DNA from: Opitutales bacterium
Lineage (GTDB): Bacteria; Verrucomicrobiota; Verrucomicrobiia; Opitutales; Seribacteraceae
DNA length: 64,000 nt
Direction of reading: 5' to 3'
Assembly (NCBI GenBank): GCA_029254745.1
Contig: JAQWWZ010000018.1
Location: forward strand, 29,397 to 93,396
Below, piece after piece: positions 31,072 to 35,558 of the stretch; position 1 is the first letter of the stretch, and each line of letters begins with the position of its first letter. Below the pieces are notes generated by a model that saw only the letters and a list, made by a program, of their open reading frames with translations, ran no database searches and was not told the origin of the DNA. Made by a program: the position numbers and the translations under genes.

Positions 31072-31158
31072 GCCGGGGTGGCGGAATTGGTAGACGCGCT
31101 AGACTCAGAATCTAGTATCTGCAAAGATGTGCGAGTTCAAATCTCGCCCTCGGCACCA
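31072..31158 (+). tRNA. tRNA-Leu (CAG), CCA encoded
   Basis: Acceptor GCCGGGG/CCTCGGC, anticodon stem-loop CTAGA-CTCAGAA-TCTAG, long variable arm, T-arm GCGAG-TTCAAAT-CTCGC, 3' ACCA. Confidence 0.97.
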
Positions 31159-32991: not shown

Positions 32992-34008
32992 ATGAACACT
33001 CATATTTCTATTTTACTTTTATCTGCTCTCGTTACATACGGCCAAACCCAGTCTCGTGTCGATTCAACCAGTAGATCTCTACCATCTCCAGTTGCTGAGT
33101 CTGCTCAAAAAAGCAGTAAAGGAACCAGCTCAGATGTTGAATCGTCCGATACAGGAGCTCAGCGACCATTGTTGCTCAAAAAATCTGGCTTTTCTGCTTC
33201 CTTCGGCTACGACAGTAACATAGCCTACAAACAAAATCCGCTTGGTGCCCCAGGTGTTTTAGACCAACAAGCAGACGCTGTTTGGGTAAATAAATTTCAT
33301 GGTATGGCCAAGCTTGGTGTTTATGATCTTGATTCATCTGTACTCACTCCTTTTGTCGGGGGTGCATGGGCGATGACAGATTACACCTACAAAAACTCTA
33401 ATGAAGCAATACCAGACTTAAGTGTGTTAAATCACAACACCACAACTGCATATTTACTATTCCTGCTACAACACGAGAGTGGTTGGGCCTTCCGAGCCGG
33501 AGTCATGTACTCAAATGACCGAAGTGTTGAAAGCGATACAGAGGAGTACAAGGAATTCTACCCTAGTGTTGGTGTAACAAAAGCCTACCCTTTGTCAGAT
33601 AATTTGCTTGGTGTATTAGATGCTTCTGTTGGTTCTCACTATGGCGATATAGAGGATGCAGACGGTCCAACCTCAAGCTCGCATACAGAAGATGAACTTG
33701 ATCACATAGATGCCACCCTTAGATATTCGATAATCTACTCATTAGAAACATTAACTATCACGCCAACATATTCAGTTTCATACCGAAAGTATGACAATGG
33801 TTTCAATTTTGACAGAACCGATGTTCTTCAGAATATCGGAGTAGTTATCCAATACCCTATCAGTGATTCATTTGAACTTTCTCTCAATTCTGATTACTCC
33901 AAAAGAGTTTCTGATGGAAATGACGAGGCTGGAGATTCTTACGATACACTGTACGATTTCAAGAAGTTTGATTTGGGTGCAGGCTTAAGCCTAACAGCTA
34001 GTTTCTAA
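32992..34008 (+). CDS. Putative outer-membrane beta-barrel protein
   Basis: Signal peptide; alternating amphipathic strands (SASFGYDSNIAYKQ, TITPTYSVSYRKYDNGF, ELSLNSDYSKRV); C-terminal ...DLGAGLSLTASF ending in Phe, typical of OMPs. Confidence 0.75.
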   Translation: MNTHISILLLSALVTYGQTQSRVDSTSRSLPSPVAESAQKSSKGTSSDVESSDTGAQRPLLLKKSGFSASFGYDSNIAYKQNPLGAPGVLDQQADAVWVNKFHGMAKLGVYDLDSSVLTPFVGGAWAMTDYTYKNSNEAIPDLSVLNHNTTTAYLLFLLQHESGWAFRAGVMYSNDRSVESDTEEYKEFYPSVGVTKAYPLSDNLLGVLDASVGSHYGDIEDADGPTSSSHTEDELDHIDATLRYSIIYSLETLTITPTYSVSYRKYDNGFNFDRTDVLQNIGVVIQYPISDSFELSLNSDYSKRVSDGNDEAGDSYDTLYDFKKFDLGAGLSLTASF

Positions 34009-34009
34009 A

Positions 34010-34801
34010 TTGATCTACATTAAAATTTCATTAATTGCCGCTGTTTCAACAGCGGCTTTTTTTTTATCAGCTTCATCGCCAAAAATCACTTATAAACATG
34101 GCCGCATAGATGCAGTTGATTTAAGCGACAAAGACAAATTTGATCCCTACCTTATTGATGTAAATACTAGTCTAACAAAAGATCTTCTCATTGCTACAGG
34201 TGTACAAGGAAGACTAGAATCAATAACACCCAAAAATTACTGGAGGCTTGGACGAGACAGCATGGGAACCTGGCGTTCTGATACAGATTTCTGGCTGCAC
34301 TCTGGAAGCTTACTTTTTTGTACTGAACATGCCCAAAGCATTAAATTTTCAACAAGAGAATCCAATGCAACTTTTAACGGTCGTGGCACCATTATCCTAG
34401 AAGCAACAAAAAATGGTGGGTTTAAATTTATCCCACTTGAAGGAAAAGGTACAATAACTACAGCTAAAGGTGGTACTAAAGAAATTATTGGAGGCCGCAT
34501 GCTGCTCGTTCTTGGAAAACCAACTTACTTTGGTGATGCTTACGATATTGATATTATGTTACTTTTGAAATCGAGCCGGCTTGTTAATTCTTACCCAACA
34601 TCTTTACCTACCTTTAAAAAGATGGGGTTAGCTATTTACATACAAGAATTGAAATTGAAAGGTAAGTATGATGCCCTGATTGGAGATGCCACAACAAATG
34701 AAAACTTAGAAATGTGGAGATTTGGCTCAGCCAAGAAAAGTGATGGTAAACCTGTTACCAATAAAAAAGGAATTTTCGGTCGTATTTTTAGCTCTGACTA
34801 A
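34010..34801 (+). CDS. Exported FecR-domain-like protein (tentative)
   Basis: TTG start 1 nt after the preceding stop; signal-like MIYIKISLIAAVSTAAFFLSASS; central WRLGRDSMGTWRSDTDFWLHSGSLLFCTEHAQSIKFSTRESNATFNGRGTIILE resembles FecR-type. Confidence 0.6.
   Translation: MIYIKISLIAAVSTAAFFLSASSPKITYKHGRIDAVDLSDKDKFDPYLIDVNTSLTKDLLIATGVQGRLESITPKNYWRLGRDSMGTWRSDTDFWLHSGSLLFCTEHAQSIKFSTRESNATFNGRGTIILEATKNGGFKFIPLEGKGTITTAKGGTKEIIGGRMLLVLGKPTYFGDAYDIDIMLLLKSSRLVNSYPTSLPTFKKMGLAIYIQELKLKGKYDALIGDATTNENLEMWRFGSAKKSDGKPVTNKKGIFGRIFSSD
34037..34065 (+). terminator. Intrinsic-terminator-like hairpin GCCGCTGT-TTCA-ACAGCGGC followed by T9, inside a CDS
   Basis: Perfect 8-bp stem (9 if the TT/AA pair closes), tetraloop, and nine consecutive T, 29 nt after the upstream stop codon. 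Confidence 0.75.
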
Positions 34802-35558
34802 ATCAAGTATACTTTGGGGGTGGCAACTTTTTGTTGCCACCCTTTACGGAAACAGTGAGAAAATTGAACTTGCAAGGCAGGGCGACATTGATGCCCAATT
34901 GTCTGTTGGATTTTCCTTATCTGTTGTCTCTCCCAACAAACGACAAGATGCCTTGTACTGGATGAAGAAAGCAGGTAATCAAGGTAATATCACAGCTTGT
35001 CAATACCTTGGTAATGTATACAAAAATGGAATTGGAACATCTATCAACTTAACCAAAGCTGAAAAATGGTATATTAAAGCCATAGCTTATGGGGGTGACC
35101 AAATCTTGCTTAATTTAGGTCGAGTCTACGAACAAGACGGTAAAATATTACTAGCTTTAGCTGCCTACAAATTATCTTCAGATAGAGGCCCTGATAAAGC
35201 CTCAACAGAAAGCTTTGAACGGCTCAAAAAGATGATACCGCAAGTAGTGGCACAAAACATTCCTGACACATTGAATGAATTAAAAAAAAGAATCTTAAGA
35301 ATACCAACTTTTGAATATAATCATCCAAAAAAACCAGTATCAAAATCCTCCACAGTTACCCTACAAGATGGGTCCACTTACAAGGGAAAAATACGCAATC
35401 ACATTCCCCATGGTTTCGGGCAAAGAATTAGCACCGATGGAACATCCTATCTTGGCAACTTCAACCTTGGCTTAGAGGATGGAATGGGTTCCTCGTTCTC
35501 ACGAGATGGTATCGTCACGTTTGAAGGTGTATGGAATCAGGGAAAACCTGTAAACTGA
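34743..35558 (+). CDS. Sel1-repeat plus MORN-repeat protein, probably exported
   Basis: Sel1-like (GDIDAQLSVGFSLS...DALYWMKKAGNQGNITACQYLGNVYKNGIGTSINLTKAEKWYIKAIAYGG) then MORN (LQDGSTYKGKIRNHIPHGFGQRISTDGTSYLGNFNLGLEDGMGSSFSRDG). Start uncertain (ATG 34722, ATG 34743 or CTG 34794). Confidence 0.75.
   Translation: MVNLLPIKKEFSVVFLALTKSSILWGWQLFVATLYGNSEKIELARQGDIDAQLSVGFSLSVVSPNKRQDALYWMKKAGNQGNITACQYLGNVYKNGIGTSINLTKAEKWYIKAIAYGGDQILLNLGRVYEQDGKILLALAAYKLSSDRGPDKASTESFERLKKMIPQVVAQNIPDTLNELKKRILRIPTFEYNHPKKPVSKSSTVTLQDGSTYKGKIRNHIPHGFGQRISTDGTSYLGNFNLGLEDGMGSSFSRDGIVTFEGVWNQGKPVN
34818..34845 (+). terminator. Perfect 10-bp hairpin GGGTGGCAAC-TTTTT-GTTGCCACCC-TTT overlapping the start region of the next CDS
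   Basis: Perfect inverted repeat 16 nt after the upstream stop; only a short T3 tail, so termination is uncertain. Confidence 0.5.

Follow-up and report, generated by a model that had tools for sequence, protein, structure and literature searches.

Can one short sequence end the mRNA of one gene and, at the same time, encode the export signal of the protein made from the next? This question is raised by the junction of two genes in the 2.45 Mb genome of a marine Verrucomicrobiota bacterium, located within the 64,000-nt stretch of DNA analysed here (hereafter, the window). Here, we describe the junction, trace it in related loci and weigh the explanations for it.

Gene order and a terminator hairpin at the junction

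The features of the locus are collected in Table 1. The upstream protein (OMP) has a weak, sub-threshold Pfam match to OMP_b-brl_2 (E 0.01), and in related loci the hairpin is likewise preceded by OMP homologues. The third gene probably starts at CTG 34794, overlapping the stop codon of the FecR-like gene, as judged from its open frame and start region. On the other side of the locus, a tRNA-Leu (CAG) gene at approximately 31072-31158 is located just 5' of a gene for a 557-aa secreted protein, which precedes the OMP gene. The tRNA (31072-31155) was the sole match in an Rfam scan of the region, and the hairpin matched no Rfam family.

Table 1. Coordinates of the features at the OMP/FecR-like junction (positions in the window)
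Feature	Position	Strand	Basis or remark
Upstream gene, secreted outer-membrane beta-barrel-like protein (OMP), 338 aa	32992-34008	+	ORF, ATG start
OMP stop codon, TAA	34006-34008	+	ORF end; protein C-terminus ...GLSLTASF*
Start codon of the downstream gene, TTG	34010-34012	+	Separated from the OMP stop by one A
Downstream gene, predicted exported protein with FecR-like beta fold, 263 aa	34010-34801	+	ORF, fold match
Predicted signal-peptide codons, MIYIKISLIAAVSTAAFFLSAS	34010-34075	+	Cleavage at about residues 20-22, judged by eye
Terminator hairpin, encoding AAVSTA(A)	34037-34056	+	Folding, covariation, synonymous recoding
U-tract, T9, codons for (A)FF(L)	34057-34065	+	Sequence; synonymous bias toward T
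Third gene, Sel1/MORN repeat protein	34794-35558	+	Pfam Sel1 E 1e-7, MORN 6e-4

The stem-loop, GCCGCTGT-TTCA-ACAGCGGC, consists of eight base pairs, six of them GC (arms 34037-34044 and 34049-34056), and a four-nucleotide loop, TTCA. It starts 28 nt past the OMP stop and 27 nt within the ORF opened by the TTG. With a GC-rich stem of at least 5 bp, a short loop and a U-tract directly 3' of the stem, the element has the hallmarks of an intrinsic terminator. The original prediction, which placed such a terminator inside the early codons of a gene whose TTG follows the OMP stop by 1 nt, was correct to the base.

The local fold has a free energy of -15.2 kcal/mol (z -2.8), equalled by only 2 of 200 shuffled sequences, and a terminator scan returned this hairpin as the top-scoring terminator-like site within 10 kb. 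On both strands of 697 kb of the source genome (the window together with portions of 40 other contigs), we identified 64 compact canonical terminator-like sites, two of which fall within the first 30 codons of a gene. Of these two, the site at 34037 is by far the stronger (-13.5 versus -10.1 kcal/mol), and it alone is preceded by a stop codon, 28 nt away. Given only two such sites in the 697 kb, we rejected the possibility that terminators in early codons are a general habit of this genome.

The hairpin encodes the core of a predicted signal peptide

Read as codons, the hairpin and the U-tract (GCC GCT GTT TCA ACA GCG GCT TTT TTT TTA) encode AAVSTAAFFL. By inspection, the N-terminus of the downstream protein comprises an n-region with K, an h-region, IAAVSTAAFFL, and a c-region of small residues; the N-termini of the homologues, also by inspection, share this layout, with basic or polar residues in the n-region and small residues in the c-region. 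In the predicted structure, a helix spans residues 4-19. From these features, we infer a Sec signal peptide that would direct the export of the downstream protein. Among the three possible phases, only the one in use encodes a hydrophobic core, the others being rich in R, Q and C or containing stops, and pair-preserving substitutions (A to V together with A to T) leave the core hydrophobic.

In every locus, no stop codon interrupts the frame between the start codon and the conserved domain, the hairpin included. The source ORF contains no further in-frame ATG, GTG or TTG before codon 85, and in the homologous loci L001, L002 and L033 the next such codon is at position 85 or 106, deep within the conserved domain. 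A start 3' of the hairpin was therefore rejected for L001, L002 and L033. Homologues starting downstream of the hairpin, which, as the original prediction pointed out, would make it an ordinary intergenic terminator, were not encountered.

Conservation in marine Opitutales

Among marine Opitutales (Verrucomicrobiota), we identified 19 homologous loci that carry a terminator at the matching place and in the matching codon phase. These loci form group A (L001, L002, L004-L013, L015, L031, L033 and L139) and group B (L018, L020 and L048); they are related homologues, and counts across them do not represent independent events. Homologues were detected by protein searches in most genomes of the source family. 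The core stem-loop is 20 nt long in most loci and 23 nt in L031, L139 and group B, a difference that corresponds to whole-codon indels. The stem exists in several variants, namely GCCGCTG/CAGCGGC, GCCGTTGT/ACAACGGC, GCCACTG/CAGTGGC, GCCGCAA/TTGCGGC and GCCGTT/AACGGC, with GCTCCC/GGGAGC in group B. The geometry of the junction and the conservation of the hairpin, the U-tract, the phase and the weak start are direct observations. Joint conservation of hairpin and reading frame had been put forward as a check on the proposed dual use, and both the check and the proposal held up, with phase, frame, stem pairing and U-tract retained together in the 19 loci. The comparative data thus strongly support the dual use, which is not a coincidence of one genome.

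In two loci of the more distant genus g3 (L021 and L022), the corresponding position and codon phase are occupied by far stronger hairpins (-24 to -27 kcal/mol), followed by weaker U-tracts. These hairpins may share ancestry with those of groups A and B or be the result of convergence. Genus g4 (L014, L016, L032 and L034) keeps the gene pair and lacks the embedded hairpin, indicating that the hairpin is not essential to the family. Locus L139 (G239:C157), 77% to L031, is closely homologous and has the hairpin and a CTG start; its genome is assigned to a different family of the order, which points to either a transfer or a mis-binned contig. The OMP frame is broken near its usual end in L018 (premature stop) and L048 (apparent frameshift), through either assembly error or decay; both loci still retain the terminator and the FecR-like gene.

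Additional pairs of OMP and FecR-fold genes (250-350 aa, some with apparently TPR-like N-termini) were observed at L045-L084 and in contigs C40, C9 and C38 of genome G000, and these may reflect an expansion of surface-sensing pairs that is specific to this lineage. No embedded terminator was found in the paralogue pairs of the groups examined (L045-L084).

At the following junction, between the FecR-like and Sel1 genes, a perfect 10-bp hairpin, GGGTGGCAAC-TTTTT-GTTGCCACCC, is located at 34818-34842, within codons of the third gene that probably encode its signal peptide. It is followed by a poor U-tract (TTTACGG); a weak version is present in the 97%-identical L002 and none in the other homologues. 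We therefore rejected this window-only hairpin, which lacks a proper U-tract and is not kept in relatives, as a second conserved case.

Selection on the stem and the U-tract

In the 13 group A sequences that share the same length, 95% of the cells at paired columns can pair, and five of the eight core pairs are changed on both sides. None of 500 shuffles of these sequences matched the observed number of paired cells, the number of double changes or the covariation score, and the pairing signal was lost when the partner was slid by 1-3 columns. A free RNAalifold prediction recovered the same stem, with nine pairs, six of which show compensatory double changes. In a tree of the mature proteins, the stem variants fall in separate clades, so that the stem changes recur.

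We then compared the real hairpins with synonymous recodings in 19 loci (17 of groups A and B and two of g3), holding the peptide fixed. This comparison matters because peptide composition alone often gives a weaker hairpin: 3-21% of the recodings reached -8 kcal/mol or better beside a U-rich tail. Nevertheless, the real hairpin was better than the recodings in all 19 loci (P 0.0007-0.05), with 0.07-5% of the recodings per locus equalling it.

Codon usage in the U-tract, assessed in 17 loci, is similarly skewed. Phenylalanine is encoded by TTT in 31 of 31 cases, compared to 148 of 213 (69%) in gene bodies and 14 of 29 in the codons just upstream, and leucine by TTA or TTG in 16 of 17 cases, compared to 182 of 432 in gene bodies (Fisher P 3e-5 and 1.5e-5, respectively, in statistics that ignore the relatedness of the loci). 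This synonymous bias implies that a terminator, and not just any hairpin, is selected. Together with the recoding test, it led us to discard a chance hairpin arising from codon composition. By these comparative tests, both the stem and the U-tract are under selection.

A weak start codon at the OMP stop

The start codon of the downstream gene is TTG in 17 of the 19 loci and CTG in the other two. In loci with an intact OMP end, it is positioned from -4 (overlapping TGA) to about +6 nt relative to the OMP stop, that is, in groups A and B the start of the downstream gene either overlaps the OMP stop or lies right next to it. The longer annotated stop-start distances in L018 and L048 reflect the interrupted OMP frame. 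The OMP homologues begin with ATG, and hence the weak start is specific to the OMP/FecR-like junction; the third gene, too, often starts with ATG.

No Shine-Dalgarno match was found upstream of TTG 34010. In G000, Shine-Dalgarno-like 4-mers precede 40 of 275 first-ATG genes, compared to 11% in the control, under a crude assignment of starts, which suggests that Shine-Dalgarno-independent initiation is common in this lineage. Because the motifs are near background genome-wide, we dropped the missing Shine-Dalgarno sequence as evidence of coupling.

Identity of the downstream protein

None of the 16 family members examined matched any Pfam family at E 0.1, searches of NCBIfam gave only stray matches, and no sequence match was found in the PDB. 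The predicted structure (mean pLDDT 72, confident over residues 21-180) gave as its best solved folds the FecR-family anti-sigma domains 6ovk and 4m0h (probability 1.0, E 2-3e-3, TM 0.38-0.47). The N-terminus of the protein corresponds to the predicted signal peptide and not to an anti-sigma or transmembrane part, and no sigma-like gene was apparent among the neighbouring ORFs that we inspected. Hence, the 'FecR-like' label of the original prediction is weaker than stated there, with support from the fold match and none from sequence. The description 'FecR-fold, exported' is a fair one for the modelled structure, and identity as FecR is not established.

A proposed terminator with a small leak

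The explanation that we favour, with a probability of roughly 0.68, is a strong OMP terminator that passes a small leak of transcription to the FecR-fold gene, the start of which is kept weak. One 29-nt sequence would be read twice, as an intrinsic terminator in the RNA and as the core of a signal peptide in the codons. The terminator would set the 3' end of the OMP mRNA, with most transcripts stopping there, and would be far enough past the OMP stop that a ribosome parked at the stop could not block the hairpin. Polymerases that leak through would yield a small share of bicistronic mRNA, and from this the FecR-fold protein would be translated, starting at the weak TTG or CTG and probably by re-initiation. 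The outcome would be a fixed ratio of high OMP to low FecR-like protein. On the terminated mRNA, ribosomes starting at the TTG would run off a stop-less end, which would account for the persistently weak start. Termination in vivo, the level of read-through, re-initiation and export are steps that we infer from the conserved arrangement. The OMP gene may also contain a separate promoter, although a consensus scan revealed no convincing one.

The spacing of the element can be compared with position data from Escherichia coli, a yardstick that may fail in Opitutales. In E. coli, ribosomes repress a terminator only near the stop codon, and termination reaches its maximum (~0.9) beyond ~27-30 nt (Li et al., PMC4824070). 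Here, the core hairpin begins 23-39 nt past the OMP stop, in loci with intact OMP ends, and 27-36 nt past the start; by the E. coli yardstick, the terminator should therefore be fully active for OMP transcripts. Furthermore, when a terminator was placed 30 bp into a second ORF in E. coli, translation of that ORF reduced the termination efficiency by only ~10%, and upstream expression was halved, which was attributed to non-stop mRNA and trans-translation (PMC4824070). By this measure, re-initiating ribosomes would not reach the hairpin in time, and OMP expression would suffer from a strong start. A tmRNA gene was found in the source genome, and the E. coli position data together with this gene favour a constitutive leak with a weak start. 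In a treatment of runaway transcription (PMC13323073), the phenomenon is discussed for many bacteria, with Verrucomicrobiota named only in a figure legend.

The original prediction went further and proposed translation-coupled attenuation, in which ribosomes finishing the OMP re-initiate at the TTG, cover the hairpin and permit read-through. Under this model, the ribosomes would closely trail the polymerase and occlude the 5' arm of the stem, so that the more the OMP is translated, the more the downstream gene is opened. The re-initiation step needs a start at the OMP stop, and a TTG or CTG only a few nt away is indeed conserved. There is also precedent: trailing ribosomes can block coding-region terminators in a pyrL reporter (PMC5021804), and in the E. 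coli gal operon, failure to start the next gene leads to Rho-dependent termination at the cistron junction (PMC9239205). The masking step, however, is disfavoured by the geometry, given that the hairpin is only 27-36 nt from the start and that, in E. coli, terminators less than 100 bp into an ORF are efficient because the first ribosome cannot catch up (PMC4824070). A strongly coupled switch would also be expected to prefer a strong start over TTG. No conserved antiterminator or competing fold was detected in the 120 nt upstream, and the pairing probability of the terminator stem is 1.0 in 14 loci. We thus consider coupling less likely than a fixed leak, and a translation-sensing attenuator inside a secretion signal, in which re-initiation at the weak TTG or CTG sets the amount of the partner protein, is a doubtful reading of the locus. 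On that reading, signal-peptide cores with alanine before phenylalanine or leucine would, more generally, be predisposed to accommodate a GC stem followed by a U-tract.

The remaining explanations dispense with one of the two functions or with termination itself. It is very unlikely that the element is a terminator only, with the region 5' of the FecR fold untranslated and the resemblance to a signal peptide a by-product of alanine, phenylalanine and leucine codons: any frame of a U-run gives Phe or Leu, and the start is weak and lacks a Shine-Dalgarno match (motifs that are rare genome-wide), but all 19 loci share one of three phases, indels comprise whole codons, the frame is open, the basic n-regions and small c-regions are in place, and L001, L002 and L033 offer no other start. 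The converse, a signal peptide with a hairpin that is a chance product of Ala, Phe and Leu codons, draws on the 3-21% of recodings that give a hairpin of the -8 kcal/mol grade beside a U-rich tail. We give it almost no credence, considering that all 19 tested loci beat at least 95% of their recodings, the stem covaries, the T bias is limited to the tract, and the next operon junction has signal-peptide codons and no conserved hairpin. An RNA-stability or pausing element that blocks 3' exonucleases, with the OMP mRNA end made otherwise, would resemble the galE E-hairpin of E. coli, where a hairpin past the upstream stop sets the mRNA 3' end (PMC9239205). Such an element is highly improbable here, given that a U-tract under selection immediately after the stem is a hallmark of terminators and would not be needed by an exonuclease block.

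Relation to known systems

Leaky terminators between operon genes set expression ratios, high upstream and low downstream, and this is the outcome proposed here for the strong terminator with a small leak. In the rph-pyrE attenuator of E. coli, a terminator close past the upstream stop gives graded read-through to the downstream gene; that terminator, however, is intercistronic and outside the downstream coding sequence. To our knowledge, the ratio-setting leaky terminators described so far are located in non-coding gaps, whereas here the gap is coding.

Three E. coli arrangements come close in other respects. The galE-galT E-hairpin likewise sets the upstream mRNA 3' end past the upstream stop, with an outcome linked to the translation start of the next gene, but it depends on Rho and exonuclease trimming, is located ~130 nt past the stop without a U-tract, and its codons are ordinary galT codons and not a signal peptide (PMC9239205). 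In the pyrBI leader attenuator, an ORF reads through an intrinsic terminator and ribosome position can control the outcome, by a switch that consists of a short leader peptide and UTP-dependent pausing (PMC4824070, PMC5021804). At the present locus, too, the ORF runs through the terminator, but it is predicted to encode the secreted protein itself, and we found no antiterminator. The synthetic construct W48 of Li et al. has the same succession of stop, start and terminator ~30 nt into the next ORF, and differs in being engineered, with a short and accidental second ORF (PMC4824070). The element described here is a variant on known attenuator-like and intragenic 3'-end hairpins. In the open-access literature, with subscription journals incompletely covered, we found no earlier description of a terminator inside signal-peptide codons.

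Implications

At junctions of this kind, gene callers and terminator callers will suppress each other's calls. The locus also makes two questions testable, namely what fraction of polymerases passes the terminator, and whether the weak TTG or CTG persists because it spares the upstream mRNA from non-stop ribosomes. The geometry built synthetically in E. coli, with a terminator ~30 nt inside an ORF, is natural and conserved in these bacteria. Thus, the OMP/FecR-like junction of marine Opitutales provides a natural case in which selection would hold one sequence both as an mRNA-end signal and as the export tag on the product of the following gene; the compensatory changes meet the demands of base pairing and hydrophobicity at once.
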